Source of the DNA: Alkalihalobacterium alkalinitrilicum
Lineage (GTDB): Bacteria > Bacillota > Bacilli > Bacillales > Bacillaceae_F
Direction: 5' to 3'
Assembly (NCBI RefSeq): GCF_002019605.1
Contig: NZ_KV917368.1
Location: forward strand, 3,193,517-3,257,516
DNA: 64,000 nt
Below the pieces are notes generated by a model that made no database searches, had not been told where the DNA came from, and was given only the letters and a program-made list of their open reading frames with translations. This document shows positions 35,515 to 63,321 of the stretch, one piece after another. Both the position numbers and the translations under genes were made by a program. Numbering within the stretch: position 1 is the stretch's first letter; the number at the start of each line of letters is the position of its first letter.

Positions 35515-35615
35515 ATTTGCTATTGGTAGAAAGATAAAGTTGTGTCCTATAACTTGGTTACCTTACAAAATTGAATTGTCGGGTCTAAGCATTAAAAATA
35601 TATTTGTAGGAATTG

Positions 35616-37472: not shown

Positions 37473-37601
37473 AACTTCACCCTCCATAAAATAATAATTT
37501 AAGATAATGCTTTGATTAACCTACATATTAGAATTTGTACTTATACTCTCATGCTCCACTAACATGTAGACATGTCTTAGGCTATAAATACTATTAATCT
37601 T

Positions 37602-38213
37602 TTAAATACAAAAGTGTGGAGAGTTTTCATATTTCTTCAATTCATTAGGAGTGTCTATGTCTACTCCCCACATTAGATTTTCAACATCGATTAATTTTAA
37701 TTTCTGAGAATGTTTCTTAATGATAGACCGACCACCTTCATCACCCTTTAGACCTTGGAATTCGGTAAACAAATCTGCATCAAACAAAACAGGGTGGCCA
37801 GGTAAACTACTATACCGTGGTCGCACAATCCGAGTTCCTTCTGACCGACTATGCAAATAAGTTTGCACTATTCTTTCAATTAACATAGGAGGTAAAAAAG
37901 GTTGATCTGCCAATAAAACCATGATGGCGTCTACTTTATCTCCTATAGCTTCGACACCTAGCTTAAAAGATGTAGCCATGCCCTCCTCGTAATTTGGGTT
38001 GCTTATAACTTCTACAGGCAAATCTCTTGTATAATGCTGTAGAGACTGAATATGTTTTCCCCCAACAATGAGTATAGGACTTAGTTTAGAACTAATTGCA
38101 CATTCTACTGAGTGAAGGAATAGCGGTTTTCCATGAAAATTTAATAATAATTTAGGAGCTCCCATGCGCTTTGACATTCCAGCGGCTAATATAACTGCAC
38201 CAATCTTAAGCAT
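37602..38213 (-). CDS. MocA/PucB-type molybdenum cofactor nucleotidyltransferase
   Basis: About 203 residues from ATG 38213, which overlaps the end of the xdhC-like gene by eight bases; GTG 38255 is less likely. Nucleotide-binding loop GAVILAAGMSKRMGAPKLLL, and LLADQPFLPP in place of the acidic metal site. Related proteins (MocA, PucB) add CMP to Mo-molybdopterin for xanthine-dehydrogenase-family enzymes. With XdhC it would supply the hydroxylase encoded at 53.9-57.7 kb. Last gene of the long operon. Confidence 0.87.
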   Translation of the reverse strand: MLKIGAVILAAGMSKRMGAPKLLLNFHGKPLFLHSVECAISSKLSPILIVGGKHIQSLQHYTRDLPVEVISNPNYEEGMATSFKLGVEAIGDKVDAIMVLLADQPFLPPMLIERIVQTYLHSRSEGTRIVRPRYSSLPGHPVLFDADLFTEFQGLKGDEGGRSIIKKHSQKLKLIDVENLMWGVDIDTPNELKKYENSPHFCI

Positions 38214-39252
38214 GAATTTTGGTTCGTCCGTGCAATGGACTTCCACTACTTCCACTCCGGATCATCATTAGTTCAGATATAATACTAATTGCCACTTCCT
38301 CAATTGTCTCAGCCCCTAGATCTAACCCAATTGGCGCATGCAGAGGACCACTCGATAAAGAGGCACCGATGTTCGTAAGCATTTCTTCGGTCCGAGATAA
38401 AGGTCCTAAGACACCAATAAAACGAGGGTTGCTTTTTAAAGCAAGTTCTATAGTTGCTTCATCGCGATTTTGTTGATGATTCATTATGACCCATGAACAG
38501 TCACTTAATAACATCGAATCAGCTTCGTTAGGTTCAGCGACCATATGTGATACATCTGGAAATCGAAAGTTATTGTTAAAGTCTTTCCTTGGGTCTAATA
38601 TTGTTACATCGTAACCTACTCCTTTAGCAACAGAAGCAAGTGGAATTGCATCGTGACCCGCCCCCGCTATTATGAGACGTTCACTAGGTTTCATCGTATC
38701 AATTACAAACCGCCGACTCCCATGGGAAATAACTTCTGCACGTGTTCGTTGTTTACGTTCCCGTGCAATTCTATGAATCTCCTTGGGTACCTCATCTATA
38801 TCACCCCAACTATCCCCGTTCTGATCTACAAGAACCCTGACACCACTTGGAATTTCCAAAACCATAGAAAGAGGTTCATTTTTGGGGATTAGACTAAATG
38901 CTCTTTGCCAAAAGCCATCCTGAGGATCAATAGGCATAATCATTACTTCCAATGATCCTTTACAACCGATACCCAAAGACCATAGATCATTTTCACTCAG
39001 ATCGTACTGTCTTGTAATTGGAGTGTTATTACGAATTGCTTCTTTAGACCACTCAAACAAATCATTCTCTAAACAACCACCGCTCAAAGTTCCAAACATC
39101 TGCCCATCATCTGCTATCATCATCTTTGCACCAGGTTGACGATAAGCTGACCCACGTACCTCAGTAATCATCAATAACGATGTTTTTTTATTGTGCTCCC
39201 AAGCCTTTTTGATATTTTTGATAACCTCTCGTGCCTCTTGTATACGCGACAA
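38206..39252 (-). CDS. XdhC/CoxI-family molybdenum hydroxylase maturation factor
   Basis: 348 residues from TTG 39252 with AGGGAGGAAAA upstream. N-terminal XdhC domain (TEVRGSAYRQPGAKMMI, GTLSGGCLENDL, IGCKGSLEVMI), then a Rossmann domain starting LIIAGAGHDAIPLASVAKGVGYDVTILDPR. Family members bind Moco, promote its sulfuration and insert it into the large subunit; B. subtilis PucA is the counterpart. Coupled to the MocA-type gene by overlapping codons. Confidence 0.92.
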   Translation of the reverse strand: MSRIQEAREVIKNIKKAWEHNKKTSLLMITEVRGSAYRQPGAKMMIADDGQMFGTLSGGCLENDLFEWSKEAIRNNTPITRQYDLSENDLWSLGIGCKGSLEVMIMPIDPQDGFWQRAFSLIPKNEPLSMVLEIPSGVRVLVDQNGDSWGDIDEVPKEIHRIARERKQRTRAEVISHGSRRFVIDTMKPSERLIIAGAGHDAIPLASVAKGVGYDVTILDPRKDFNNNFRFPDVSHMVAEPNEADSMLLSDCSWVIMNHQQNRDEATIELALKSNPRFIGVLGPLSRTEEMLTNIGASLSSGPLHAPIGLDLGAETIEEVAISIISELMMIRSGSSGSPLHGRTKIHA

Positions 39253-39277
39253 GATTTTCCCTCCTAGTAATTATGGA

Positions 39278-40258
39278 TTATCGTGAAACAGCAACTCTGC
39301 CTGAAATAAAACTCTCTACTTCTTCAAGGGTGGGAAGTCCCTCCCAATCTCCCCTATACTGGGTGACCATTGCCCCTATTGCATTAGCTCTTTGTAAGCA
39401 GTCAAACATATTTTCTTGATCTAGATAAGCAGATAAAAATCCAGCTGCAAATCCATCACCAGCCCCGACTGTATCTACAACCTGGTGAACAGGAAATCCT
39501 GGGGCCTTTACTTTATATAAGTTTCCTTCTTCCTTTGTATAAGCAATAGATCCCTCTGGTCCTACCTTAATTACGACAATCTTTGCTCCTAACGCCAATA
39601 TGTCTATTGCAATAGAATCTGGATCTTGCTTACCAGTTATAAGTTCACCCTCATCAATACCAGGTAAAATGATATCGGATAATTTAATTAGTTCAATAAA
39701 TGTCTGCCTAGCCTCTGCAGCACTCCAAAGTTTGTATCTCATATTTGGATCAAAAGAAATCATTGCGCCCGCTTGTTTAGCTAGCCGAATAGCCTCAAAT
39801 GAAGTTTCCTTACACTCTGAACTTAACGCAGGAGTAATTCCAGTTAAATGCAAGGTCTTTACGCCTTCGAACATTTCCTGTGATAACTCTTTTGATTTCC
39901 ATACACTTGCTGCTGAACTTTTTCGATAATAGTAAACTCCTGGATCGATTGCTCCCTTAATTTCTTTAAACATTACACCAGTAGGATATTGTTTATCTCT
40001 TCTTACATAAGAGAGATCAACTCCCTCACCTAATAGAGTGGAATAAATATAATCGCCGAAGGGATCATTTCCTAACCGACTTAGCCAACCTACTCTTTTC
40101 CCTAAGCGAGTAAGACCTATCGAGACATTAGACTCGGCTCCTGCAAGTGATTTTGCTAAAGATGATGCATATTGCAATCGACTATCTTGAACCGTTTGAA
40201 ATAATACCATTGTTTCTCCTAGAGTCAAAATTTCTGGATTTATCCCCTTATGAGTCAC
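39278..40258 (-). CDS. kdgK: 2-Keto-3-deoxygluconate kinase (PfkB family)
   Basis: About 326 residues. GTG 40258 is chosen because AAAGG lies upstream and the reading frame to 40294 intrudes far into the aldolase gene. PfkB/ribokinase pattern: LTLGETMVLFQ, SLAGAESNVSIGLTRLG, FDPNMRYKLW, IKVGPEGSIAY, and DTVGAGDGFAAGFL with the catalytic Asp. Most like 2-dehydro-3-deoxygluconate kinases. With the aldolase just upstream it would form KDG -> KDPG -> pyruvate + glyceraldehyde 3-phosphate. Why these stand in an operon with a hydantoinase-type pathway is not clear. Confidence 0.85.
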   Translation of the reverse strand: MTHKGINPEILTLGETMVLFQTVQDSRLQYASSLAKSLAGAESNVSIGLTRLGKRVGWLSRLGNDPFGDYIYSTLLGEGVDLSYVRRDKQYPTGVMFKEIKGAIDPGVYYYRKSSAASVWKSKELSQEMFEGVKTLHLTGITPALSSECKETSFEAIRLAKQAGAMISFDPNMRYKLWSAAEARQTFIELIKLSDIILPGIDEGELITGKQDPDSIAIDILALGAKIVVIKVGPEGSIAYTKEEGNLYKVKAPGFPVHQVVDTVGAGDGFAAGFLSAYLDQENMFDCLQRANAIGAMVTQYRGDWEGLPTLEEVESFISGRVAVSR

Positions 40259-40892
40259 AGCTGTCACAACCTTTAATTGTTTGCATAAACGCATTTGCAG
40301 ACTGAGTTAATAGATCAAAATTACCTTGAGTAATAGCTTCTTTCTTAATTAAACTGCTACCAACACCAACAGCAACGGCACCTGCCTTAAAAAAACTTTT
40401 AACATTGTCGATATTGACTCCGCCGACAGCTACCATTGGAATGTGACCAAGCGGTCCTTGTAGTTCTTTAAGATGGCTGACTCCAAGACTGCTTGAAGGA
40501 AAAACTTTTACCATTTTTGCACCTGCATTGTACGCTTTCACAATTTCAGTTGGTGTCATTACACCAGGCAGGACATCTATTCCTCTTTCCAATCCAAACT
40601 TAATAACATCTTCATCAACATTAGGGGTAATGAGATATTGAGCCCCAGCTGCAATCGCTTCTTTAGCCATCTCTTTATTTAGAACGGTACCAGCACCGAT
40701 ATACATTTTTCCATTAGAGGAGTCAACCAATTTTGATATCATTTGAGGTGCATCATCTGTATTCATAGTTACTTCTATTAGATGAACACCTCCCGCATGT
40801 ATTGCATCTGCCACTGGAACTGCACTTGAGGTTTCAATGCCGCGAATAATTGCGACCAAACGATACTCCTTCAACCATTCATAAAATCCCAT
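40248..40892 (-). CDS. eda: KDPG/KHG aldolase
   Basis: 214 residues from ATG 40892 with GGAG upstream. Class I aldolase of the Eda family: LVAIIRGIE, HLIEVTMNT (Glu active-site position), GAGTVLN, FLITPNVDE-type segment, PGVMTPTEI, and KVFPSSSLG with the Schiff-base Lys. It splits 2-keto-3-deoxy-6-phosphogluconate, and family members also split 4-hydroxy-2-oxoglutarate. The last eleven bases overlap the kinase start. Confidence 0.92.
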   Translation of the reverse strand: MGFYEWLKEYRLVAIIRGIETSSAVPVADAIHAGGVHLIEVTMNTDDAPQMISKLVDSSNGKMYIGAGTVLNKEMAKEAIAAGAQYLITPNVDEDVIKFGLERGIDVLPGVMTPTEIVKAYNAGAKMVKVFPSSSLGVSHLKELQGPLGHIPMVAVGGVNIDNVKSFFKAGAVAVGVGSSLIKKEAITQGNFDLLTQSANAFMQTIKGCDSCDS

Positions 40893-40926
40893 TTAAAGTT
40901 CTCCTCCTTTATTCTCACACCAACTT

Positions 40927-41538
40927 TTAACGGTCGTTGTATGGGACAAAGATATTATGTAACCCCGCTGTCTTTACAAAAGAGTGAACTTGACCACCAT
41001 TTTTCCTGTACTGATCTAAGTGAATTACAGGCCAAGCTTGATCGATTTTTAAGGTAAGGTCTTTTGTATAATCTTCCTCTTCAAAGGAAACTACCTTAAC
41101 GTCACCTAATATCAATGTATGGTCACCCACGTCTACTTCTTTAAAGAGGCGGCACTCCAAACTAGCCCTACATTCAGCAATTCCTGGAGTTTGGATGACA
41201 CGCGATTCCAGACGTTGAAACCCGATTACCGAGAATTTACTTACGTCGCTAGGATGTTGGTACGACGCCTGGACTAGCTTATCAGCGACCTGCATAGTGG
41301 GGATGTTTAACACAAACTCCTTCTCCCTACGAATATTGGTCAGTGTACGATTCGGTGGAGAGTTTACCAATGCAACGCTTACCCGAGGTGGATTGGCTGA
41401 TACTGGCATATTCCAGCCAAAAGGGGCAACATTAATGGTGCCATCCTTATTAAGGGTAGTTAGCATTGCTGGTCGACTAGGCTGGAGAAATGACCAATAT
41501 TCGTCTATCTGTTCTTCGGATAATATAACTTTTGCCAT
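40927..41538 (-). CDS. Flavin reductase family (DIM6/NTAB) FMN-binding protein
   Basis: 203 residues. Split-barrel flavoprotein pattern: RPAMLTTLNKDGTINVAPFGWNMPVSANPPRVSVALVNSPPNRTLTNIRREKEFVLNIP, then AECRASLECRLFKEVDVGDHTLILGDV. Such proteins reduce free FMN for a partner oxygenase or are flavoproteins themselves. The only luciferase-like enzyme nearby is the one at 52.3 kb, which looks F420-type, so partnership is uncertain. Confidence 0.87.
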   Translation of the reverse strand: MAKVILSEEQIDEYWSFLQPSRPAMLTTLNKDGTINVAPFGWNMPVSANPPRVSVALVNSPPNRTLTNIRREKEFVLNIPTMQVADKLVQASYQHPSDVSKFSVIGFQRLESRVIQTPGIAECRASLECRLFKEVDVGDHTLILGDVKVVSFEEEDYTKDLTLKIDQAWPVIHLDQYRKNGGQVHSFVKTAGLHNIFVPYNDR

Positions 41539-41556
41539 GGTAACACCATCCTTCCT

Positions 41557-42186
41557 TTATGCTTCAACGTCGCGAACCAAGTTTGCGGTCTTGTGTCGAA
41601 TCATAGACACGAGCTCTTTCATAATTTGTTCGCCATACGGTTCTGATAAAGCTAACTCTTCCCACTTGTCTAGTGAACCGAAACTGTCAACACCCGTCAG
41701 TAACCACAGAGAGCGTTCACCAAACCCTAATTCAGATTGCATAACGTGGGCCGTAAACCCCCGTTCTCTCCAATAGGGAAGGCATTTCTCAATTAGATGT
41801 TTTTCTAGTTCTCCTGCTGGTCGATTTGAATCAAACCCTTCGATGTGCCACATAGGATGAGCATGCCAATTTAGAGGGGTTGCACCCGCTCCAATCTCCT
41901 TTAACATTTTAGCTTGCGGCGTTCCATCAGCTAAATTTATTAATTGGCTTAATAGCTCTACACCCTTTGGATCTGCCCCAACTCTTTCTGGCCAACGATC
42001 AAGATCTGCAAATGAATTTGCTTCAGTTGTGAAAAAAAATTCTCCTTGCCCCAACTCGTGCTGAGTCACAAAAAATTTAACATTGAATCCACAACTACGG
42101 AAATACGGAAGTAGCTCATCACGCATTAACGCCTCGATTTCACCAGGGGCACCCAAGCTTGCTTGTATTTTTTCAAAATGCCACAT
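41557..42186 (-). CDS. Tandem-duplicated dimeric alpha/beta-barrel-like protein, 209 aa
   Basis: 209 residues from ATG 42186. The two halves repeat each other: LPYFRSCGFNVKFFVTQHELGQGEFFFTT...SFADLDRWPE (about 27-70) and LPYWRERGFTAHVMQSELGFGERSLWLLT...SFGSLDKWEE (about 132-175). Each half looks like a ferredoxin-like dimeric barrel domain of the NIPSNAP/EthD kind, so the protein would form a pseudo-dimer. Function unknown; a small-molecule binding, isomerase or monooxygenase role is possible. In the operon between flavin reductase and aminotransferase genes. Confidence 0.72.
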   Translation of the reverse strand: MWHFEKIQASLGAPGEIEALMRDELLPYFRSCGFNVKFFVTQHELGQGEFFFTTEANSFADLDRWPERVGADPKGVELLSQLINLADGTPQAKMLKEIGAGATPLNWHAHPMWHIEGFDSNRPAGELEKHLIEKCLPYWRERGFTAHVMQSELGFGERSLWLLTGVDSFGSLDKWEELALSEPYGEQIMKELVSMIRHKTANLVRDVEA

Positions 42187-42215
42187 TCTTTACTACCACC
42201 TCTCTAACAGACAAC

Positions 42216-43382: not shown

Positions 43383-43422
43383 TGTATATTCCTCCCTTTG
43401 TTTTCACTTAAAATAAAGTAGA

Positions 43423-44400: not shown

Positions 44401-44401
44401 A

Positions 44402-45373: not shown

Positions 45374-45374
45374 A

Positions 45375-46247: not shown

Positions 46248-46268
46248 ATACAAATCCCCCTCCTTTCG

Positions 46269-47282: not shown

Positions 47283-47351
47283 ACGCAAATCCCCCTTTGT
47301 TGAGTAAGGAAAAGACAGGTGGCTATCGCCACCTGACTTTCCTACTCCTTC

Positions 47352-48980: not shown

Positions 48981-49069
48981 TCACCTTTTCCTCCTCTAAA
49001 TTATCTTTTATTTTTATTTCTAAATTTCAAAAATATCTGATATTTAGAAAGTTTAAAAAACTACTATCC

Positions 49070-50641
49070 TTAACTACTTAGTATACCTGCAGCTTTTGCC
49101 CTTATGCGGAGCGCATGGTTTGATAGATACGCTAAAGGAACTTCTTCAAAATCTACAATAGATACTGAGTTAGCTTCAGCACCTGCATTCATCGCCATAC
49201 GAATTGCCGTTGCTTTAGCTTCTTCTACAGCCTGAGCACGAGTAGTTTTTTCTAGACTCCACATACGGTCTACCTCACCAGAAACCTGTGCGATAGCAGC
49301 TCCAATGGCATTCGCGTATTGATAGTGAAGAGGACGAATAACCTCAGAGGTACCAGCTAACTTATCAGGCATTAAAATGCTACCACCTCCAACTAGTACT
49401 GCAGGAAGATCAACATTACTAGTTTTCATCTTATCAATCGAAGCCTCTGTTATTTCGCGTATTTGCTGTGACACTTGAGATACGACAGTATCTGGTATGT
49501 GGCTTGTACGTTCAACCAAAAATGCAGGATGATTGATTTTCTCAGGATCCATTCGAGCTATAATATCAGTCGTAGTAAGGGTATCTCCACCAAATCCAAT
49601 CCCTTTCTCTAACAACTGGTAACCAACGCTATCTGGGCCAATCTTTACTGCTCCATTTTCCAAACGAACTACGCTACCGCCACCTAGTCCAACAGCTAAG
49701 ATATCTGGCATTCGAAAGTTTGTCCTAACCCCGCCAATTTCCACTGCAATACCTGATGTCCTAGGGAAACCTTTCGTCAAAACACCTACATCAGTTGTAG
49801 TGCCGCCAACATCAACCACAAGGCAATCATCGAGACCACTAAGGAAAGCTGCGCCTCGAATACTGTTAGTCGGACCAGAACCAATTGTAAGTATCGGGAA
49901 GCGACGGACATATTCTAAATCCATTAAGGTTCCATCGTTCTGGGCAAAAAGTATTCTAGGAGACATCCCCCGTTCAATTAAAGCTTTTTCCAGTCCACCA
50001 GCAGCTTTAGCAGCTACTTTTACTAGGGCTGCATTCAACCCTGCCGAGTTCTCACGCTCTAATAAACCGATGCTACCAATCTCATGAGACATTGTAATTG
50101 GAACTTCAGGTCCTAACGCAGCCTGTAACCGCTTGGCTAATTGTTTCTCTTGATCAGAGCGAACAGGGGAAAATATACCACAAATGGCTACAGCCTCCAC
50201 GCATTCTGATTTCAGTTTTCGTATAACCTCATCTACTTCATAATCATCAAGATCTTTACTAATTAACGTCCCATCGTATTCGTAACCACCCTGAATTTCA
50301 AAATACAGATCACCAACGACCTCACGTAAGTCTTCCGGCCATGTAAACATAGGGTTGATGGAACTAGCAGCAGGACGAGAGATACGAATTAACCCGATGC
50401 GAGCGAGGCTCTTACGTTCTACTAACGCATTCGTACAAGCTGTAGTACCTAACATTGTGTAATCAACTTTTGCTGGGTCGACATTTGCTTGTGACATTAC
50501 CTCATCGATTGCATTAAAAATACCTGTACCAATATCCTCAGTAGTCGGTGTTTTTATACCACCTAAGAGGTTATTTCGATTATCAAGGAGAACCGCATCA
50601 GTATTCGTCCCCCCTACATCAATTCCAATCTTATAACTCAA
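49070..50641 (-). CDS. Hydantoinase/oxoprolinase family protein (HyuA-like, short form)
   Basis: 523 residues. ATP-binding ASKHA-type pattern of the family: IGIDVGGTNTDAVLLD at the N-terminus, LGTTACTNALVERK, VVDVGGTTTDVGVL, and GGGSVVRLENG. It is shorter than the full 650-700-residue HyuA and ends after the central domain, as in the group that pairs with DUF917. ATP-dependent ring opening of hydantoin-, oxoproline- or lactam-like compounds is known for relatives. Its start overlaps the DUF917 gene by eleven bases. Confidence 0.88.
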   Translation of the reverse strand: MSYKIGIDVGGTNTDAVLLDNRNNLLGGIKTPTTEDIGTGIFNAIDEVMSQANVDPAKVDYTMLGTTACTNALVERKSLARIGLIRISRPAASSINPMFTWPEDLREVVGDLYFEIQGGYEYDGTLISKDLDDYEVDEVIRKLKSECVEAVAICGIFSPVRSDQEKQLAKRLQAALGPEVPITMSHEIGSIGLLERENSAGLNAALVKVAAKAAGGLEKALIERGMSPRILFAQNDGTLMDLEYVRRFPILTIGSGPTNSIRGAAFLSGLDDCLVVDVGGTTTDVGVLTKGFPRTSGIAVEIGGVRTNFRMPDILAVGLGGGSVVRLENGAVKIGPDSVGYQLLEKGIGFGGDTLTTTDIIARMDPEKINHPAFLVERTSHIPDTVVSQVSQQIREITEASIDKMKTSNVDLPAVLVGGGSILMPDKLAGTSEVIRPLHYQYANAIGAAIAQVSGEVDRMWSLEKTTRAQAVEEAKATAIRMAMNAGAEANSVSIVDFEEVPLAYLSNHALRIRAKAAGILSS

Positions 50642-51785
50642 GGTGATCCACCTCCTTTAAAACTTTAAATTTTTCCTTATAGTATTCTGAATGAATTTCT
50701 TCCATCAGTTGATAATCTACATCGTAGCCAAAATAACGAGGCCCCCACACTTCAAGAGCTTGTGGCGTGCGCATGATCTCAGGTGTAGGAATACCAAGAG
50801 CAGTGACGCGGTACCCATATCTCACACCTTCTGTAGTGATCGGCATCCCAGTTTCTGCGTCGAGTAATGTGATTAAATCTGGTACCATCGCAACAATCTC
50901 TCCATCTTTTCGTGCGATTAGGTTTTCATTCTGGAAATCTACCTCTAGGGTACTTCCTTGAAACTTATCAAACCCTTCGATCTGAATCATTCCTCTTACA
51001 AAACCATCTTTTGTTTGACGATCAACACCAGTAACTTTCCCTTGGAAAAGTACCATACCTGGACCGTAAATCGAATTAGCAGTAACCCCAATAATTGCCT
51101 CAATAGGGTCTTCCTTACGAATACGTGCCTCTCGTATCGCTCGACCAATTCGAATGGCTAATGAAACTGTACCTGTAATAGCTACCTCTTTAACCTGTTG
51201 ACCACTCATTGGGTATTCAGCTAAATGAGAGGTAGCTCCCATTTTAACCGTGATTGCTCGAGCAAAACGTTCTAAGCTAAGATTGTCTTTTGTGTTCAAT
51301 ATACAGTGGTCACCCTGCTCGTTATGAAGAACCATCGGTGAACCACTTATACCGTATATATGAAACGTTTCCATTTGAAGCTCTGGGAAAGCTCTCCCCA
51401 TGCCATCAGCATCTACAACTGGTATTCCAGCCTGAGCTGCAACTACAAAAGGTATCGTTGAATTTCCACCACCACATTCAATAGGCATGGTAGCAAAAGC
51501 ACGCTTTCCTAAATACTTTTCCAAAGCTCGAAGTGCGTTATAGCCCTCCTCTCCATTTGGAATTTTCTCAATACTAACTGTAGGTGCACCCATTGCTGCA
51601 GTTGGAATTACTAATGCGTCATCTGGAAGCTCGTGGGGTGCAAGTAAAGTTATTGGACCTGTTTCACGAATTGCACGTTGTGCCATTAACTTACCTACAT
51701 ATGGATCTCCCCCGCCTCCAGTACCGAGTACTGCTGCACCGATGGCTAAATCTTCTATTTCTTGTTCTCCAATTAATGTAGCCAA
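50631..51785 (-). CDS. DUF917 family protein
   Basis: 384 residues from ATG 51785 with GGGGAG upstream. The pattern LAIGAAVLGTGGGGDPYVGKLM, IPTAAMGAPTVSIEKIPNG, PIECGGGNSTIPFVVAAQAGIPVVDADGMGRAFPELQM is that of the DUF917 family, nearly always found beside HyuA-like proteins and Opp-type transporters; it is thought to be a partner in the hydantoinase/oxoprolinase reaction. First gene of the operon that starts at the sigma-54 promoter at 51843-51859 and runs about 14 kb to the MocA-type gene. Confidence 0.88.
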   Translation of the reverse strand: MATLIGEQEIEDLAIGAAVLGTGGGGDPYVGKLMAQRAIRETGPITLLAPHELPDDALVIPTAAMGAPTVSIEKIPNGEEGYNALRALEKYLGKRAFATMPIECGGGNSTIPFVVAAQAGIPVVDADGMGRAFPELQMETFHIYGISGSPMVLHNEQGDHCILNTKDNLSLERFARAITVKMGATSHLAEYPMSGQQVKEVAITGTVSLAIRIGRAIREARIRKEDPIEAIIGVTANSIYGPGMVLFQGKVTGVDRQTKDGFVRGMIQIEGFDKFQGSTLEVDFQNENLIARKDGEIVAMVPDLITLLDAETGMPITTEGVRYGYRVTALGIPTPEIMRTPQALEVWGPRYFGYDVDYQLMEEIHSEYYKEKFKVLKEVDHLEL

Positions 51786-51842
51786 TATTAAAAACTCCCC
51801 TCTCCTTTTATCTGATTATTTTTAACCTTTTGTAAACTATAT

Positions 51843-51859
51843 TGCAAGATATGTGCCAA
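51843..51859 (-). promoter_or_regulatory. Sigma-54 promoter of the DUF917/HyuA/ABC operon
   Basis: On the minus strand TTGGCACATATCTTGCA, with GG and GC of the -24 and -12 elements twelve bases apart start to start, matches the consensus TTGGCACGnnnnTTGCW at all but one fixed position. The predicted start of transcription is about 51831, some 45 bases before the DUF917 ATG. A TTCTCA array lies about 330-400 bases upstream. Confidence 0.9.
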
Positions 51860-52172
51860 CTTAGATAGTCGATAGACAAAATTTTACAAAAAGTAATAAA
51901 AAAATAGGTTTTTATTAGTGTTTTTAGTAAATAATTACAAATATTTGGTGAAAAACAATAGCTTTTTTGCAGGGAAAGAAGTTTATTAATTAACATTTTT
52001 TACTTCAAATGGTTGAAATAACTTAATTTTGAGAACAACAGTTTAAAGAATAAAAATGTAGTAATCTATTATAAATAATCTTTAAAATATTCTATAAAAA
52101 ATATGCAAAATGTTAGAAAAAGAAATAATAGTTCTATATAAAAATATCTAAGTCGATTTTTTCAATATTTAA

Positions 52173-52218
52173 GAAAAAAAAATGAGAAAAGAAGATAATT
52201 CTCATCCTCTTTTCTCAT
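52173..52218 (-). terminator. Intrinsic terminator of the molybdenum hydroxylase operon
   Basis: On the minus strand ATGAGAAAAGA pairs perfectly with TCTTTTCTCAT (11 bp) over a 15-base loop and is followed by nine T residues. It lies about 35 bases past the stop of the luciferase-like gene and overlaps part of the TTCTCA array. Confidence 0.85.
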
Positions 52219-52253
52219 GATTTTCTCACCTTTTTTTCTCAAGAAAATTCTCA
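52183..52253. repeat. TTCTCA/TGAGAA array upstream of sigma-54 promoter at 51.85 kb
   Basis: Six exact copies: TGAGAA 52183-52188, then TTCTCA at 52199, 52212, 52223, 52236 and 52248 (start positions). The five direct copies are spaced 13, 11, 13 and 12 bases, about one helical turn, as expected for proteins bound side by side on one face. The last copy overlaps the stop codon of the luciferase-like gene. Candidate upstream activating sequence for the DUF917 operon. Confidence 0.75.
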
Positions 52254-53267
52254 ACGAAAGTTAGGAATTACCTTTTCAGCAAACAATTCAATGGCACCTT
52301 CCGATGTCATCTCTTCAAATGCCCATGGGTGAATAGCAACCTGGTGAATTCCCATCTCATGCTGCTCTTTAATCTGTTCGGTAATTTCTTCAGGCGATCC
52401 CGCTAGAGAAAACTTTCTTACCAACTCATCAGGAACTAACTTTCCAACCTCGCCAGCCGCCTCTGGAGATAAGTGATAACTGAGATTACCCAAACTCTCT
52501 TCTAATTCCTTAGGCAACTCAATTCCTAACTTATCATGGAAACCTTTAGTTCCCCAAAGTACAAAGGCAACCATCCATCGAGCGTTATCGCGAGCTACTT
52601 TACCATCTGGATGAATAAAAGTCTGTAACCACAATGTTTTTTGTAAATCATCTAATGACCTACCTGCATCCTTAGCCCCTTTTTCGACTTGTTGTAACCC
52701 CCATTCCACTACATCTGTGGATGCATAGTCACCTAGAATTACTCCATCAGCAACTCGTCCAGCTGTTTTTAATACCAAAGGTGCAGCACCTGCGATTAGA
52801 ATTGGAATATCAGGTCGTAAAGGTGTGAAATCCAATTTCGCCTCTTTAACCTGGATAACATCTCCCTCTACAGTTACTCTTTCTCCTTGTAGTAGAGGGC
52901 GAATTACATTCACTGCCTCTCGTAATGCTCGAGCTGGTTTTTCACGTTTAATACCCATTTCAGCGAAACCACTGACTCCAGCGCCATACCCTAAAGTCAT
53001 TCGTCCTTCGGAGATTTCATCAACACTTGCTAGTGCCGCTGCAGTCATAGCAGGGTGGCGGGAATATGGGTCTGTTACCGCAGTTCCCAATTTTACCTTT
53101 GTTGTGTTTTGAGCTATAACAGCAAGTTGTGAATAACATTCCCTATAAAAACGTTCATCAGGCATCCATATTTGATCGAATCCAATTTCTTCACATTTTT
53201 GCGCTAACGATATTAAAGTTTTGTATGGGTATTTACCTAAAAGTCCGATACCAAATTCCATTGACAT
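52251..53267 (-). CDS. F420-type LLM-class oxidoreductase (luciferase-like, Mer-like)
   Basis: 338 residues from ATG 53267 with GGAGGAG upstream. TIM-barrel luciferase-like family: FGIGLLGKYPYKTLISLAQKCEEIGFDQIWMPDE, KVKLGTAVTDPYSRHPAMTAAALASVDEISEGRMTLGYGAG, and IPILIAGAAPLVLKTAGRVADGVILGD. The GxG-type loop and overall pattern are those of F420-dependent methylene-tetrahydromethanopterin-reductase-like proteins rather than FMN monooxygenases. F420 use is supported by biosynthesis genes and an F420:NADPH oxidoreductase in the window. It is the last gene of the hydroxylase operon and probably reduces or oxidises the hydroxylated intermediate. Confidence 0.87.
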   Translation of the reverse strand: MSMEFGIGLLGKYPYKTLISLAQKCEEIGFDQIWMPDERFYRECYSQLAVIAQNTTKVKLGTAVTDPYSRHPAMTAAALASVDEISEGRMTLGYGAGVSGFAEMGIKREKPARALREAVNVIRPLLQGERVTVEGDVIQVKEAKLDFTPLRPDIPILIAGAAPLVLKTAGRVADGVILGDYASTDVVEWGLQQVEKGAKDAGRSLDDLQKTLWLQTFIHPDGKVARDNARWMVAFVLWGTKGFHDKLGIELPKELEESLGNLSYHLSPEAAGEVGKLVPDELVRKFSLAGSPEEITEQIKEQHEMGIHQVAIHPWAFEEMTSEGAIELFAEKVIPNFR

Positions 53268-53294
53268 TTTTTCTCCTCCTTGTTTCTTGCTTCC

Positions 53295-53564
53295 TTAACC
53301 CCCACCAATTGCAAGGATAATTAAAACTTCGTCCGTTGCACTAATAGGTGTATCAAGTCCTTGTAATATCCGAATGTCCTGACCATTGACCAAAACATTC
53401 ATCCATTCTGCCAAATCTCCATGTTCATTTAAGATCCACTCTTTTAACGATGGAAAACGATTGCGTAAACCAACCATTATCTCCGAAACATTCGCCGCCT
53501 CTAATTGAACCTCTTTCACCCCAGTATGAGGAAGCCACATCGGCGGGATACGGACGGTAACCAT
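53295..53564 (-). CDS. MoaD/ThiS-family sulfur-carrier-like protein
   Basis: 89 residues from ATG 53564. Beta-grasp pattern: VTVRIPPMWLPHTG ... VSEIMVGLRNRFPSLKEWIL ... NVLVNGQDIRILQGLDTPISATDEVLIILAIGGG. It ends in Gly-Gly-Gly, consistent with C-terminal activation by an E1-like enzyme such as the ThiF/MoeB protein at 59.2 kb. In the operon between the luciferase-like gene and a 103-aa protein. It may serve molybdopterin synthesis or deliver sulfur to the hydroxylase cofactor or substrate. Confidence 0.83.
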   Translation of the reverse strand: MVTVRIPPMWLPHTGVKEVQLEAANVSEIMVGLRNRFPSLKEWILNEHGDLAEWMNVLVNGQDIRILQGLDTPISATDEVLIILAIGGG

Positions 53565-53566
53565 TT

Positions 53567-53878
53567 TTACGCTACCCTCTCAGTCAGAATACAAAACCAA
53601 TCTGACACCCAGCTACCCCACTCCTCACTAAAGCCTGCCATCTCTGGAGCAGTAATATCTTTTTTATACTGATCAACATCAGAAATAACTATTTCTTCGA
53701 TGATTTGATATGCTGGTTTACTACCATCTAATGTAGCCACTGTTTTATAATCGTGGAATTCTCTAATTGACTCAACTGATTTAGCAGCAGGATGATTAAC
53801 CTCTACAGACCAACGTTCGTACTCCTCGACTGTCTTCCCTTGAGCAAGGTTAAAAAGAAAATAAGCCTTGTATTCCAT
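53567..53878 (-). CDS. Small dimeric alpha/beta-barrel-like protein, 103 aa
   Basis: 103 residues from ATG 53878. Pattern MEYKAYFLFNLAQGKTVEEYERWSVEVNHPAAKSVESIREFHDYKTV...YQIIEEIVISDVDQYKKDI resembles the RedY/EthD-like ferredoxin-fold proteins that dimerise to bind or rearrange small aromatic or polyketide-like molecules. No catalytic residue can be named. It separates the molybdenum subunit gene from the MoaD-like gene with almost no spacing, so it belongs to the pathway. Confidence 0.75.
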   Translation of the reverse strand: MEYKAYFLFNLAQGKTVEEYERWSVEVNHPAAKSVESIREFHDYKTVATLDGSKPAYQIIEEIVISDVDQYKKDITAPEMAGFSEEWGSWVSDWFCILTERVA

Positions 53879-53936
53879 CTTTAATCGCCTCCATCTATAT
53901 TATAAATTTCTCTTTCAGTTCAGGATGAGGTTAGCA

Positions 53937-56252
53937 TTATCCTAGATTAGTAGATACTTTACTTTCTTTTTCTTTTATTGCCCTTAATACTTTTTCTGCA
54001 GTGATAGGTAAGTCATGAATGTGAACACCTATTGCATCAGCAACTGCATTGGAAATTGCTGCTGCTGGAAGAATAATTGGCGCTTCCCCAACACCTTTAG
54101 CACCATAAGGACCAGCCGTAGACGGGCTTTCTACTAAGATAGTTTCAATTCGAGGAACGTCCATAATTGTCGGCATCTTGAAATCGGTCATATTCGGATT
54201 TAATACAACACCATCTTTATAGACAATCTCTTCAGATAAAGCATAACCAATTCCCTGAACTACACCACCAGTCATTTGTCCTTCGGCCCCATCTGGGTTA
54301 ATCGCATAACCCACATCCTGAGCCACCACATAACGTTTTACAGTAACTTCTCCAGTATCTGGATCTATCTCTACTTCTGCTGCTTGTGTATGGAATGATG
54401 GGAAATTATAGACTGGATACAAACTTCCCTTAACTGTATTAACATCATACTCTGTAGGTTCAATAATATATGAACCTCGACCAATAATAGGACCGCCATT
54501 CCACATTCGATCAGCAGCTATTTCGGCTAAGTTAATACTGTTCGTTGGATTTTGAGAATCGTAAACTTGCTTATCTTTGAGTTCTAATCGTTCCACTGGC
54601 ACATTTAACTTTTCAGAGGCCGTAACAAATAGTTGACGCTTCGCATCCTGAGCAGCAATTCGAGAGGCATTCCCTACATTAAATGTAGTGCGTCCTCCTT
54701 GAGCACCAAAATCGTACGGAGTTGAATGTGTATCCCCAGTAATCAGACGTACATCGGTAATGTCTATTCCAAGCTCTTCTGCAACAATTTGCGCAACTCC
54801 CATTGTTATAGCACCTGTACCAATTTCTTTTCCACCAGTTATAAGAACTACAGTACCGTCATCATTTAATTGGACGTAGGCGCAAGAAGAACCACCAGCA
54901 GATGTCCAAATGGCAGTAGCGATACCACGACCTGTATACTTTGGACGCGGTTGATCCATTCCAATCTGCTCAGATACTTTAGTTATAGTTTCTTGCAGAC
55001 TTACTGTTTCAATGACTTGCCCAGTTGGCCCCAAATCACCATCTTTCAATCCATTTTTTTGTCGTATTTCAACCTTATCTATATTTAATTCATTAGCTAT
55101 CTTATCTAAATGTGTTTCAATAGCATAATAGGTTTGAGGAGCCGATGGTCCACGGTAAGCACCACAATTTGCCTTATTTGTATAAACTGCCAATGAATCT
55201 ACTTTATAATTCGGGATATTATACGCACCACGAGCTAGCATAGCACCTACCGAGCAAATCACACTACTATCTCCAGTATAAGCGCCTGCACCAAATAGAA
55301 TTTTAGCTTGACGAGCAGTAATCGTACCGTCCTTCATAACCCCAGTTTTTACATAGAGAACTGCTTCTTGACGAGGTGCTGCAGCCTTCATTTCTTCCTC
55401 TCTATCCCAGAGGTATTTTACTGGACGTCCCGTTTTACGAGCGAGTAATGCTACAAAATGTTCAACACCCAAATCTAATTTCCCACCAAAACCTCCACCT
55501 ACTCCTGTTGAACTTACTCGGATTTTACTTGTAGGTAATTGGAGAATATCAGAAAGATTTCCTAGAATACCAAAAGGAAATTGAGTGCTTGATGCAATTA
55601 CAACAGTTCCATCTGCTTCAACATGAGCCATTCCAGCACGTGCTTCTAGGTATCCTTGGTGGACCATATGGGTTGTAAAACGGTCTTCAAACACATAATC
55701 TGCCTCAGCGAAGGCTTTTTCTACATCACCAGTGTTAATGGTCGTATGTCCACAAACATTGTCGTATCGAACCACATCAGGATTACCATTATAGCTTTCC
55801 CAATCAGGATGCAGTAATGGTGCATCTGGCTTCAAAGCCTCTTCTGGACCATTTATCACTGGTAATTCCTCAAATTCGATCTCGATTAATTTTAATGCTT
55901 CCTCACCAATCTCCCTTGTATCAGCAGCAATAGCAGCAATAGGTTCACCGTAATAACGTACATAGTCTCTAGCAAAAACAACTTCATCTTTCACAGTATG
56001 ACCATGTCTAATATTTGAAGGTATGTCATCTGCCGTCATTATTGTACGAACACCTGGATAAGCCAATGCCTTACTAATGTCTAATCGTTTAATTCTCCCG
56101 TGAGGAATCGAACTACGAAAGACTTTACAGTGTAGAAGGCCTGGAGCATCTAAGTCTGCCCCATAGATAAATTTTCCAGTAACTTTCTCTGGACCATCTA
56201 GCCTATTTAAACGTTTACCTACGACTGTTGTTTCCTTTTCTTTAGTAATCAT
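53937..56252 (-). CDS. Xanthine-dehydrogenase-family molybdopterin-binding subunit (CoxL/XdhA-like)
   Basis: 771 residues, full length, from ATG 56252. Domain order: N-terminal a/b hammerhead (KVTGKFIYGADLDAPGLLHCKV, about 17-40), then the Moco domain with GVGGGFGGKLD (about 250), GAYRGPSAPQ (about 368), QGGRTTFNVGN (about 525) and the active-site Glu in GAKGVGEAPIILPAAA (about 735). The CO-dehydrogenase Cys loop was not seen, so a hydroxylase of an aldehyde, purine or N-heterocycle is expected. Forms a complex with the FAD and 2Fe-2S subunits encoded upstream. Confidence 0.93.
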   Translation of the reverse strand: MITKEKETTVVGKRLNRLDGPEKVTGKFIYGADLDAPGLLHCKVFRSSIPHGRIKRLDISKALAYPGVRTIMTADDIPSNIRHGHTVKDEVVFARDYVRYYGEPIAAIAADTREIGEEALKLIEIEFEELPVINGPEEALKPDAPLLHPDWESYNGNPDVVRYDNVCGHTTINTGDVEKAFAEADYVFEDRFTTHMVHQGYLEARAGMAHVEADGTVVIASSTQFPFGILGNLSDILQLPTSKIRVSSTGVGGGFGGKLDLGVEHFVALLARKTGRPVKYLWDREEEMKAAAPRQEAVLYVKTGVMKDGTITARQAKILFGAGAYTGDSSVICSVGAMLARGAYNIPNYKVDSLAVYTNKANCGAYRGPSAPQTYYAIETHLDKIANELNIDKVEIRQKNGLKDGDLGPTGQVIETVSLQETITKVSEQIGMDQPRPKYTGRGIATAIWTSAGGSSCAYVQLNDDGTVVLITGGKEIGTGAITMGVAQIVAEELGIDITDVRLITGDTHSTPYDFGAQGGRTTFNVGNASRIAAQDAKRQLFVTASEKLNVPVERLELKDKQVYDSQNPTNSINLAEIAADRMWNGGPIIGRGSYIIEPTEYDVNTVKGSLYPVYNFPSFHTQAAEVEIDPDTGEVTVKRYVVAQDVGYAINPDGAEGQMTGGVVQGIGYALSEEIVYKDGVVLNPNMTDFKMPTIMDVPRIETILVESPSTAGPYGAKGVGEAPIILPAAAISNAVADAIGVHIHDLPITAEKVLRAIKEKESKVSTNLG

Positions 56253-56264
56253 TTTTTAACCTCC

Positions 56265-56750
56265 TCACACTTTGTTTAGTTTTCTTAATTCAGAGGCCGC
56301 CTGTTGTACCGCATCTACTATGCCATTGTATCCCGTACAGCGGCACAAGTTTCCAGCTAGGTAATTACGGATCTCCTCTTCTGTTGGATCGTCATTCTCT
56401 TCTAATAAAGACTTTGTAGACATAATAAAACCAGGTGTACAGAATCCACACTGTAACCCGTGACAGTCTACAAATGCTTTCTGTATTGGGTGAAGTTTGT
56501 CACCTTCTGCAACGGACTCAACAGTTGTAATTTCCTTTCCACCTGCTGCAACAGCTGGTAACAAACAAGAATTTACTGACTTGTTATCTAGTGTAACAGT
56601 ACATACACCACATTCACCTTCTCTACAGCATTCCTTAGTACCAGAAAAGCCAAGTTCTTCTCTCAGAACATCCAATAGAATGCGATGAGGTTCAACCTCA
56701 ATATGATAATCACTTCCATTAATCTTTAGTGTTAGTGGAACCTTAGCCAT
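56265..56750 (-). CDS. 2[2Fe-2S] subunit of the molybdenum hydroxylase
   Basis: 161 residues from ATG 56750. The plant-type cluster is bound by CREGECGVC ... SC (about 42-63) and the second cluster by CGFC ... CRC in the segment CGFCTPGF and AGNLCRCTGY (about 102-140). Full length for this subunit family. Carries electrons from the Mo site to FAD. Confidence 0.95.
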   Translation of the reverse strand: MAKVPLTLKINGSDYHIEVEPHRILLDVLREELGFSGTKECCREGECGVCTVTLDNKSVNSCLLPAVAAGGKEITTVESVAEGDKLHPIQKAFVDCHGLQCGFCTPGFIMSTKSLLEENDDPTEEEIRNYLAGNLCRCTGYNGIVDAVQQAASELRKLNKV

Positions 56751-56768
56751 TCTAACCCTCCTCTTTTT

Positions 56769-57656
56769 TTAGGATATTTTTGTACCAGTCTCTGTATCCT
56801 GTAATATCTCTAAGCATTGACTTAATGCCCGGCGCACCATTGACTCAACTAACATACGTCGGTATTCAGCAGATCCACGCACATCAGAAATTGGGTTACA
56901 ATCATTTACTGCGGCTGTACCAGCAGCTCTAATCAAATCTTGAGTAATTACTTTTCCTTGCAGTAACGCCTCAGCACTATGAGCTCGAACTGCTGTAGGT
57001 GCTACAGACCCTAAGCCAATTCTCACATCAGCAATACCATTTTCGTCTAGAGTGACTCGAGCAGAAACCGCACACAATGAAATTTCCATAGCTTTACGTC
57101 TACCAGCCTTCAAAAATACCGTAGCTGTATTGGAAGCTTGTTTAGGCACTTCAATTTCTGTTAGAAATTCCCCTGGTTCAAGTGCAACTTTACGAGGACC
57201 TAATAAAAATTCTTGCAACGGTAAACTTCTAGTACCTTTTGGTCCCACTATTGTCACCGATGCGTCTAAGGCTAGTAAAACTGGAGGAGTATCAGCAGCT
57301 GGCGAGGCATTACATAGATTACCTCCAACAGTCCCCATATTTCTAACTTGTATTCCACCAACTGTGGAACACGCTTGCCTTAAAGCCTCAGTAGCTTGAG
57401 TAATTAATGATGATTTTTCAACTTCTCGATGAGTCACTTGAGCACCAAGTACTAGATTTCCTTGTTCATTTTCACGAATTCCTTTTAGCTCTCTAACTCC
57501 ATCAAGACTAATTACATGCTTAGGATCTACCTTAAATCGAGTGATAAGAACCATCAAATCAGTTCCACCTGCTAGAAGTTTGGCATCATCGCCATATTCA
57601 ACTAGAAGTTTATTAACCTCTTGAACCGTCTTAGGTTCATGATAAACAAAAGACAT
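56769..57656 (-). CDS. FAD-binding subunit of the molybdenum hydroxylase (CoxM-like)
   Basis: 295 residues from ATG 57656 with AGGAGGTG upstream. An upstream in-frame extension to 57725 must be rejected because it would begin inside the sigma-54 promoter at 57714-57730. FAD motifs: LLAGGTDLMVL (about 31-41) and TVGGNLCNASPAADTPPVLLAL (about 108-129). First gene of the operon FAD subunit - Fe-S subunit - Mo subunit - 103-aa protein - MoaD-like - luciferase-like. Confidence 0.93.
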   Translation of the reverse strand: MSFVYHEPKTVQEVNKLLVEYGDDAKLLAGGTDLMVLITRFKVDPKHVISLDGVRELKGIRENEQGNLVLGAQVTHREVEKSSLITQATEALRQACSTVGGIQVRNMGTVGGNLCNASPAADTPPVLLALDASVTIVGPKGTRSLPLQEFLLGPRKVALEPGEFLTEIEVPKQASNTATVFLKAGRRKAMEISLCAVSARVTLDENGIADVRIGLGSVAPTAVRAHSAEALLQGKVITQDLIRAAGTAAVNDCNPISDVRGSAEYRRMLVESMVRRALSQCLEILQDTETGTKIS

Positions 57657-57713
57657 GTTACACCTCCTAGAATAATTAACTTTTGAATATTCAATCTCTT
57701 CATAACATTCCCT

Positions 57714-57730
57714 TGCAATTTCCATGCCAA
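57714..57730 (-). promoter_or_regulatory. Sigma-54 promoter of the molybdenum hydroxylase operon
   Basis: On the minus strand TTGGCATGGAAATTGCA matches TTGGCACGnnnnTTGCW except for one base, with exact GG-GC spacing. Transcription should begin near 57702, about 45 bases before the FAD subunit ATG. Confidence 0.9.
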
Positions 57731-57847: not shown

Positions 57848-57896
57848 TTCTCATATTTTTCTCATTCTCATCTCATTTCTCACCACGCATTGAGAA
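57848..57896. repeat. TTCTCA/TGAGAA array upstream of sigma-54 promoter at 57.72 kb
   Basis: TTCTCA begins at 57848, 57859, 57865 and 57877, ATCTCA (one mismatch) at 57870, and TGAGAA at 57891. Main spacings are 11-12 bases. The array is about 120-170 bases upstream of the sigma-54 promoter, the normal range for enhancer-binding activators, and is the counterpart of the arrays at 52183 and 24127. Confidence 0.75.
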
Positions 57897-59033: not shown

Positions 59034-59065
59034 CTCTTCACCTGCTTTCTTCAATAGTATGTTAT

Positions 59066-59084
59066 TTGAGAATTTCTTTCTCAA
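59066..59084. promoter_or_regulatory. TTGAGAA-N5-TTCTCAA palindrome upstream of moaA
   Basis: Perfect 7-bp inverted repeat around five bases, about 35 bases before the moaA start codon. It contains the same TGAGAA hexamer as the three arrays, here as a single symmetrical pair. A clear sigma-54 promoter was not found beside it, so it may be an operator or coincidence. Confidence 0.5.
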
Positions 59085-61850: not shown

Positions 61851-61893
61851 ATCTGTACCCTCCATAGATTTTAATTTCTCTTGATCGCAATTA

Positions 61894-63305: not shown

Positions 63306-63321
63306 AGGAATGTTCTCCTTT

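Follow-up and report, generated by a model that had tools for sequence, protein, structure and literature searches.

According to the available text of a 2021 review (PMC8498797), no experiment had addressed the role of the cofactor F420 in bacteria outside the Actinobacteria, and even though F420 genes were predicted in Firmicutes, whether these organisms make the cofactor was open as of that year. F420 cassettes accompanied by catabolic genes are already known; the locus described here is a further variant of this kind. The locus consists of two head-to-tail gene groups, both on the minus strand, at positions 37602..57730 of a 64 kb stretch (the window analysed) of one contig of the 5.52 Mb genome of Alkalihalobacterium alkalinitrilicum. 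Here, the genes for F420 synthesis, F420 reduction, a molybdenum (Mo) hydroxylase and a catabolic set form one block with one promoter type. We consider it rather probable that this block constitutes a single sigma-54 regulon which, with its own supply of two cofactors, degrades an imported cyclic nitrogen compound; the substrate, the order of the steps and the direction of hydride transfer are what we infer.

The closest described arrangements include the F420 cassettes carried by proteobacterial plasmids (Paracoccus, Leisingera, Sinorhizobium, Variovorax and Agrobacterium), which also hold cof genes, npdG and a gene for a luciferase-like oxidoreductase (LLM) in one block. However, their LLM is merely 20-31% identical to that of A. 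alkalinitrilicum, they carry other hydrolases, and no DUF917, HyuA, KDG kinase or KDPG aldolase is annotated in the stretches read. At 44-68 kb of pSymA, for instance, Sinorhizobium meliloti encodes a dihydroorotase, NpdG, CofD, CofC, CofH, an LLM, a deacylase, a transhydrogenase and a three-subunit Mo hydroxylase, a block that could be an F420-dependent reductive pathway for N-heterocycles. Another related arrangement is the adjacent DUF917-HyuA pair found with an Opp or NCS1 transporter in Haloferax, Planococcus and Parageobacillus, where HyuA is of the same short type and DUF917 is 55-58% identical to ours, but where no Mo hydroxylase, F420, KDG kinase or KDPG aldolase genes are annotated alongside. 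A racemase gene accompanies the hydantoin pathway. In Pseudomonas sp. NS671, this pathway consists of HyuA, HyuB and the carbamoyl amino acid hydrolase HyuC, as given in the available text of PMC8453981.

The first of the two gene groups contains, in order, the FAD, 2Fe-2S and large subunits of the Mo hydroxylase, a small barrel protein, a MoaD-like protein and the LLM. Identities are those to the homologues in Peribacillus glennii.
56769..57656, minus strand: moM, Mo hydroxylase FAD subunit; PF00941 and PF03450 (FAD_binding_5/CO_deh_flav_C); 80% identity
56265..56750, minus strand: moS, Mo hydroxylase 2Fe-2S subunit; PF01799 and PF00111; 83% identity
53937..56252, minus strand: moL, Mo hydroxylase large subunit; PF02738, PF20256 and PF01315
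53567..53878, minus strand: small barrel protein; HapK at E 0.0076 and 17.2 bits, below the cut-off of 25; 89% identity
53295..53564, minus strand: MoaD/ThiS-like protein with the C-terminus GGG; PF02597 at 36.1 bits, cut-off 22.5
52251..53267, minus strand: LLM, Mer-family luciferase-like oxidoreductase; PF00296; 87% identity

The second group starts with DUF917 and the HyuA-like ATPase, followed by an Opp-type importer, an aminotransferase, a duplicated barrel protein, a flavin reductase-like protein, a KDPG aldolase, a PfkB kinase, and the XdhC and MocA proteins.
50631..51785, minus strand: DUF917 / S-Me-THD family protein; PF06032 and PF20906
49070..50641, minus strand: short HyuA-like ATPase; PF05378 and PF01968
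47352..48980, minus strand: Opp-type substrate-binding lipoprotein; PF00496
46269..47288, minus strand: OppB-type permease; PF00528 and PF19300
45375..46253, minus strand: OppC-type permease; PF00528 and PF12911
44402..45373, minus strand: OppD-type ATPase; PF00005 and PF08352
43423..44418, minus strand: OppF-type ATPase; PF00005 and PF08352
42216..43382, minus strand: class I/II aminotransferase; PF00155
41557..42186, minus strand: duplicated barrel protein with an internal repeat; 78% identity
40927..41538, minus strand: flavin reductase-like FMN-binding protein; PF01613
40248..40892, minus strand: KDPG/KHG aldolase; PF01081; TIGR01182 at 190 bits, above its cut-off of 156.05
39278..40294, minus strand: PfkB sugar kinase, KDG-kinase-like; PF00294; NF040938 at 214.5 bits, below its cut-off of 400
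38206..39252, minus strand: XdhC-type Mo enzyme maturation factor; PF13478 and PF02625
37602..38255, minus strand: MocA-like molybdenum cofactor cytidylyltransferase; PF12804; TIGR03310 at 169.1 bits, below its cut-off of 186.45

Gaps within the groups range from -50 to 89 bp, 465 bp separate the first group from the second, and a terminator-like hairpin lies 3' of the LLM gene. The genes named in the first-pass annotation are thus where it had placed them, on the minus strand and in the families it gave, all above Pfam cut-offs except for the two barrel proteins. The Mo hydroxylase belongs to the xanthine oxidase family, its three subunits carrying molybdenum cofactor, 2Fe-2S and FAD domains and its cluster the XdhC and MocA genes. 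The best NCBIfam match of its large subunit is 4-hydroxybenzoyl-CoA reductase alpha (563.6 bits, below the cut-off of 994.55), and the equivalog cut-off is reached for none of 13 listed Mo hydroxylase families (XDH, HBCR, CODH and aldehyde oxidoreductases). The aminotransferase also stays below the NCBIfam cut-offs (PRK07682, 391.3 bits against 620; GntC, 375.7 against 415). PF06032 has a single match in the whole genome. The duplicated barrel protein reaches the cut-off of no Pfam family and has no plasmid match either; its AlphaFold2 model, made from a single sequence, was unusable (mean predicted local distance difference test, pLDDT, 53.0). The MoaD-like gene sits between the small barrel and LLM genes.

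The control regions suggest that the two operons are regulated together. TTGGCAY-N5-TTGCA is the textbook sigma-54 consensus, and both operons are headed by an exact copy of it. These promoters, the TGAGAA arrays upstream of them and the probable regulator are the following:
51843..51859, minus strand: sigma-54 promoter of the DUF917 operon; exact match, also exact before DUF917 in P. glennii
57714..57730, minus strand: sigma-54 promoter of the Mo hydroxylase/LLM operon; exact match, with one mismatch in P. glennii
52199..52253, minus strand: TGAGAA array, likely activator site of the DUF917 operon; five copies, 11-13 bp apart
57848..57896, minus strand: TGAGAA array, likely site of activator action for the Mo hydroxylase operon; four copies 6-12 bp apart, with one inverted copy
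24127..24223, plus strand: TGAGAA/TTCTCA cluster before the activator gene, two and three copies; a cluster also precedes the P. glennii homologue
24337..26247, plus strand: PAS/AAA+/Fis-type sigma-54 activator, probable regulator; PF00158, PF00989 and PF02954

Two exact sites occur in the 64 kb, against a mean of 0.02 in 100 shuffles, none of which held two. Genome-wide, the exact pattern is found 30 times in A. alkalinitrilicum, where the reversed pattern is absent, and 23 times in P. glennii, where the reversed pattern occurs once, so that sigma-54 sites lie far above chance in both genomes. SigL control of both operons, as proposed in the first-pass annotation, is supported by these sites; the open reading frame of the FAD subunit is another matter, since its listed start at 57725 falls inside the promoter, which makes the ATG at 57656, behind AGGAGGTG and with a ribosome-binding site upstream, the likelier and now corrected start of moM. 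A third exact site (L002 9314-9330) lies past the window, ahead of a pterin-4a-carbinolamine dehydratase gene and then cofG, and in P. glennii an exact site likewise precedes the dehydratase gene and cofD. The dehydratase gene itself (L002 8702-9031) is directly behind the third site and has a counterpart at a comparable position in P. glennii (L018 5712-6011).

Counted on both strands in 90-bp stretches, TGAGAA reaches its highest densities in the window upstream of the DUF917 operon (6), of the Mo hydroxylase operon (5) and of the activator gene (4), where 30 first-order Markov simulations gave a maximum of 3, a test made after the fact because the motif was chosen once seen in the hairpin. 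The array of the DUF917 operon overlaps this terminator-like hairpin behind the LLM gene. In the 21 kb stretch of P. glennii, whose cluster is adjoined by a homologue of the activator (68%), the three densest places are the same, with counts of 5, 5 and 3. When triplets with 3-8 bases between copies are sought in whole genomes, the stretch ahead of DUF917 is the only place that has them in A. alkalinitrilicum, with three overlapping matches; P. glennii has two ahead of DUF917, one ahead of the Mo hydroxylase operon and none elsewhere. Reversed-pattern controls gave 0; the array of our own Mo hydroxylase operon has one shorter step and so falls outside the triplet pattern. At the level of sequence, the signature thus appears unusually clean, with the -24/-12 promoters, the AAA+ activator and the upstream arrays that characterize a sigma-54 regulon. 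The activator would bind the TGAGAA arrays as well as its own promoter. With arrays and promoter type in common, the two operons look co-regulated, as had been suggested, which bears on the separate expression that the first-pass annotation named as an argument against itself.

The operons are flanked by genes for the two cofactors. Upstream of the first group lie moaA, a moeB/thiF gene and then cofH, cofE, cofC, cofD and cofG, and npdG is directly downstream of the second group.
36822..37487, minus strand: NpdG, NADPH:F420 reductase; TIGR01915 at 215.3 bits, above the cut-off of 149.8; 81% identity in P. glennii, at the same place
58005..59084, minus strand: MoaA, GTP 3',8-cyclase; TIGR02666 at 395.5 bits, cut-off 284.05
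59168..60223, minus strand: MoeB/ThiF-type adenylyltransferase; PRK12475 at 405.8 bits, below the cut-off of 510
60663..61865, minus strand: CofH, FO synthase; TIGR03551 at 503.6 bits, cut-off 374.1
61894..62646, minus strand: CofE, F420-0:glutamate ligase; TIGR01916 at 290 bits, cut-off 180.65
62643..63344, minus strand: CofC; TIGR03552 at 143.4 bits, cut-off 105
63322..64000, minus strand, running past the window (L002 6322-7266): CofD; TIGR01819 at 305.1 bits, cut-off 257.45
L002 7312-8490, past the window edge: cofG, assigned by 44-61% similarity to other cofG

CofH, CofE, CofC and CofD, the set for F420 biosynthesis, thus all exceed their curated cut-offs. Between the dehydratase gene and cofG lie 211 bp. 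A single transcript may run from the third sigma-54 site through the cof genes. The XdhC and MocA proteins of the second operon fit the Mo enzyme of the first, which couples the operons to each other. Between the cof operon and moaE/moeA-like genes, a transposase-like gene was read from the sequence (L002 9489-10946). Behind npdG, at 34216-36764, are a malic enzyme-like gene and one of the Glu/Leu/Phe/Val dehydrogenase family, which could supply NADPH and handle ammonia; the pair was not recognised at the corresponding place in P. glennii. Further along the window, at 26788-29875, genes of the zinc alcohol dehydrogenase, GntR/FCD regulator and enolase families follow one another.

In the genomes drawn, the cluster is rare. 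In a scan of one genome per species, which detects close relatives only and in which 47 stretches matched a pattern, P. glennii provided the sole confirmed relative of the LLM. There, the gene order from moM to npdG is kept, with identities from 61% (MocA) to 89% (small barrel protein), and the neighbours are moeA and cofD, cofC and cofE; moaD, moaA, moeB, moaE, cofG and cofH were not found in this cluster. At E <= 1e-70, one of 397 genomes of the order has the LLM and at E <= 1e-50 one of 348 of the phylum, A. alkalinitrilicum itself in both cases; at E <= 1e-40 it was found in one of seven genomes of the own family (again A. alkalinitrilicum) and, among 43 genomes of the family of P. glennii, in P. 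glennii alone. In some of these scans, scoring covered the five or six best candidates of each genome, and the genome draws partly overlap, so that the counts are not additive. CofE exceeds its cut-off in one of the 397 genomes of the order (our own, with two copies) and, as the only one of the 43 genomes of its family, in P. glennii; within the genomes drawn, the LLM and CofE above cut-off are therefore confined to the same two genomes. CofH was found more widely, in 4 of 299 genomes of the order. The three other genomes of the order with cofG/cofH loci share the FO synthase genes with ours, but cofC, cofD and cofE were not recognised in the stretches read (these hold cofG and cofH, or cofH by itself near the end of a contig), which suggests that these organisms make FO only.

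Both genomes have a second F420 locus. That of A. alkalinitrilicum (contig C1, about 969-988 kb, with the F420 block at about 974-988 kb) encodes an LLM (27%), AMP-ligases, HyuA, HyuB and NpdG (40%) as well as CofC, CofE, CofG and CofH, amid transposase-like genes, and an intact cofD was not recognised in it; as read from the sequence, its cofG open reading frame has an N-terminal stretch of about 110 extra aa beside transposase-like remnants. The locus of P. glennii (contig C19, 218000-250000) carries a 30% LLM paralogue, cofC, cofG, cofH, a sigma-54 activator gene and two NCS1 permease genes, followed by genes for an Asp/Glu/hydantoin racemase family protein, an M20 hydrolase, HyuB and HyuA, and has exact sigma-54 sites heading the LLM gene, one permease gene and the HyuA gene. 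A HyuA-family gene is thus found within about 13 kb of all four F420/LLM loci of the two genomes, three of which are not orthologous.

The cofactor type of the LLM is suggested by its relation to Mer. The LLM has the PF00296 domain and is closest to the F420-dependent members of that group. Its nearest solved structures are those of Mer (E 6.7e-55, 189.7 bits over 334 residues), ahead of FGD (75 bits), an unspecified 'luciferase family protein' (62 bits) and named monooxygenases (at most 42 bits). The available text of PMC11094777 lists Glu6, Phe233, Gln178 and Asp96 as residues of the Mer pterin site and places the Gly61-Val62 cis-peptide beneath F420. Similarity to Mer extends over the whole length, and Phe233 (Phe235 in the LLM) and the valine of the cis-peptide (Ala63-Val64) are retained. 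However, three of the four pterin-site residues are gone, with Gly8 in place of Glu6, Gly179 at position 178 and Val98 in place of Asp96. The solved Mer chain shows Asn at position 178, with Gln160 aligning with Ala161 of the LLM, and the LLM has no carboxamide either way; the text of the Mer paper does not mention Asn178. The LLM also scores below both Mer cut-offs (PRK02271, 228.6 against 276; TIGR03555, 225.5 against 348.7). A role as Mer in C1 metabolism is rejected on these residues and scores. With an F420-compatible backstop and a pterin site that is mostly gone, the LLM is probably, judging from its sequence, an F420-type oxidoreductase with a substrate other than that of Mer. That it is F420-type rather than FMN-type had already been proposed, and is strengthened by the flanking F420 biosynthesis and npdG genes. 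An AlphaFold2 model from a two-sequence alignment was unusable (mean pLDDT 38.6). Among plasmid relatives, the best 25 of 72 records reach at most 32.7% identity, and no match at E <= 1e-40 was found on plasmids.

From these parts, the following pathway can be proposed. The PAS-type activator (24337-26247) would sense the substrate or a product and turn on three sigma-54 promoters, those of the cof genes, the Mo hydroxylase/LLM operon and the DUF917/HyuA operon. The compound would be taken in by the Opp-type ABC importer and hydroxylated by the Mo hydroxylase, whose three subunits would owe their maturation to XdhC and MocA. NpdG would generate F420H2 from NADPH, and the LLM would transfer a hydride between the cofactor and the hydroxylated ring, which is most likely reduced in this step. 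The cyclic amide or ureide so formed may then be activated and opened by DUF917 and HyuA at the expense of ATP, after which the aminotransferase would remove the amino group. Finally, the KDG-kinase-like enzyme and the KDPG aldolase would cleave a 2-keto-3-deoxy acid, giving pyruvate and a phosphorylated fragment of three carbons or similar. It is this last pair, kept in both genomes, that suggests a 2-keto-3-deoxy acid skeleton after transamination. Import, Mo hydroxylation, transamination and aldol cleavage are drawn solely from family knowledge; the interpretation given in the first-pass annotation is upheld in part.

Ring opening is the weakest step and is deduced from distantly related proteins. 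HyuA shares with the ATP-dependent hydantoinases and lactamases of the HyuAB/CapAB type both phosphate motifs (DVGGTNTD and DVGGTTTD), but it is only 523 aa long and is paired with DUF917 instead of HyuB. The absence of the PGP stretch from HyuA is by itself a weak criterion, as CapA, according to the available text of PMC8453981, also has no adenine-binding motif. DUF917 has the PF06032/PF20906 domain pair of (thio)hydantoin desulfurases but is far below their equivalog cut-offs (NF058532, 103.3 against 450; NF058529, 99.9 against 440). With a short, HyuB-less HyuA and such a DUF917, the earlier assignment of cyclic-amide opening to this pair stays conjectural. On a plasmid of Parageobacillus thermoglucosidasius, an exact sigma-54 site (L009 6036-6052) stands directly before the DUF917-HyuA pair and behind a sigma-54 activator gene, so that the module seems to be sigma-54-driven there too.

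A further-reaching version of this pathway, which we hold only tentatively and as somewhat less likely than not, is that F420 would be dedicated and inducible, made on sigma-54-controlled demand for a new class of Mer-derived hydride transferases within a catabolic pathway that is itself new. The boldest form of this idea, which is speculation, has as substrate a ring of the imidazole, imidazolone or pyrazine type that bears a polyhydroxyalkyl side chain, for example a 3-deoxyglucosone/arginine glycation product. Hydroxylation, reduction, ring opening and transamination would then yield exactly the 2-keto-3-deoxygluconate required by the last two enzymes.

Several observations weigh against a single regulon that degrades a cyclic nitrogen compound. 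The promoter pattern (its Y and N5) was fixed only after both sites had been seen, and the pattern of the TGAGAA arrays was likewise chosen after inspecting the sequence. The cof promoter has two TGAGAA copies only, downstream of the sigma-54 site, which makes action of the activator there a guess, and no TGAGAA arrays were found at the second F420 loci of the two genomes. In P. glennii, cofG and cofH sit in the second locus and not in the main cluster. As for rarity, the LLM scan of the 397 genomes of the order scored the best five candidates per genome, and CofE-like matches at 145-150 bits, below the cut-off of 180.65, occur in another three genomes of the order. On the enzymatic side, no HyuB family was found among the cluster proteins scanned by profile, the PGP stretch is absent from HyuA, and the flavin reductase gene of the second operon could mean some FMN-dependent step. 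Plasmids do not settle the matter in its favour either. Of 59 plasmid records with a cofH match, 16 were opened and 43 were not, two of the 16 being near-identical Leisingera layouts. Four of these 16 contexts have an unambiguous annotation of a cyclic-amide hydrolase no more than 10 kb from cofH (Leisingera twice, Sinorhizobium and Agrobacterium), one is ambiguous (Variovorax) and eleven have none annotated. Four 50-kb control stretches from four of the same plasmids contained one dihydroorotase-family gene and one imidazolonepropionase gene; three of them also had generic 'amidohydrolase' genes, and one encoded subunits of the Mo hydroxylase type. With controls this similar, the association between cof genes and cyclic-amide hydrolases across phyla is not significant and counts as a hint only.

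Archaeal plasmids offer related layouts. In Natrinema, HyuA, HyuB and LLM genes follow one another with overlapping ends. In Haloarcula marismortui, a Mer-like LLM gene (31%) lies about 10 kb from Mo hydroxylase genes, together with D-aminoacylase and nucleobase transporter genes, and the Mo hydroxylase is accompanied by the selenium-dependent cofactor genes yqeB, yqeC and selD. This is possibly an F420-linked purine or hydantoin locus of haloarchaea.

The alternative that survives best keeps the same pathway and turns the hydride around: the LLM would be a dehydrogenase passing substrate electrons to F420, and NpdG would reoxidise F420H2, making NADPH. NpdG-type enzymes are reversible, and neither a transhydrogenase nor an FGD-type F420-reducing dehydrogenase is among the families found in the block. 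FGD and Adf, which have the same fold, are dehydrogenases (available text of PMC6279831). Set against this, the LLM is nearest to Mer, on the reductase branch, and the Leisingera and Sinorhizobium plasmid cassettes hold NAD(P) transhydrogenase genes in the npdG block, which fits NADPH-driven reduction of F420. Both points favour the reducing direction, and we regard the opposite one as unlikely, though it deserves serious consideration.

It is improbable, in our estimate, that the DUF917, HyuA and Opp genes are a widespread uptake-and-hydrolysis module merely sharing its regulator with an F420/Mo hydroxylase module. The plasmid stretches read from Haloferax, Planococcus and Parageobacillus, with their DUF917-HyuA pairs and transporters outside any F420 or Mo context, would agree with such a division into two pathways. 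However, XdhC and MocA are encoded in the DUF917 operon, gene order is kept in P. glennii, and sigma-54 sites and TGAGAA arrays occur at both operons, with the triplets of set spacing confined to the cluster.

Similarly low is the probability we give to a sugar-acid carbon pathway, in which the Mo enzyme would be an aldehyde oxidoreductase, kinase and aldolase would process KDG, and the nitrogen genes would be peripheral. The 2Fe-2S subunit does match the glyceraldehyde dehydrogenase gamma subunit best (210.9 bits, cut-off 290), and the KDPG aldolase is over its cut-off, but HyuA, DUF917 and the aminotransferase share the same conserved operon, and the large subunit scores higher against 4-hydroxybenzoyl-CoA reductase (563.6) and xanthine dehydrogenase (525.9) than against glyceraldehyde dehydrogenase (413.5), all of them below cut-off. 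Finally, we regard it as very improbable that the LLM is a monooxygenase dependent on FMN and on the flavin reductase of the second operon, with F420 left to other enzymes: even though that Flavin_Reduct gene is present, the genome has 24 Bac_luciferase matches (the LLM included) and two control stretches show LLM/flavin reductase pairs to be a common alternative arrangement, the LLM is nearer in sequence to F420 enzymes, its gene is bracketed by F420 genes, and within the genomes drawn it is found only in the two that have CofE above its cut-off.

The preferred reading, one sigma-54 regulon for an imported cyclic nitrogen compound, has no described counterpart within the open-licence literature, among the matches listed, which agrees with the first-pass annotation in this respect. 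Searches for F420 together with hydantoin, oxoprolinase, dihydropyrimidinase, Mo hydroxylase, Bacillaceae, Bacillales or Peribacillus returned no such pathway among those matches; within the same limit, DUF917 received incidental mentions only, thiourocanate and thiohydantoin led to chemistry papers only, and no bacterial degradation of 3-deoxyglucosone hydroimidazolone was announced.

Two genomes therefore tie F420 genes, through a common promoter type, to a defined catabolic set with a candidate regulator and operator, and with this tie the role of F420 in Firmicutes becomes testable. If the proposed pathway is true, it would add a new substrate class for Mer-like enzymes and would place the numerous DUF917/HyuA pairs that lack a characterised role in a pathway whose final steps can be recognised.

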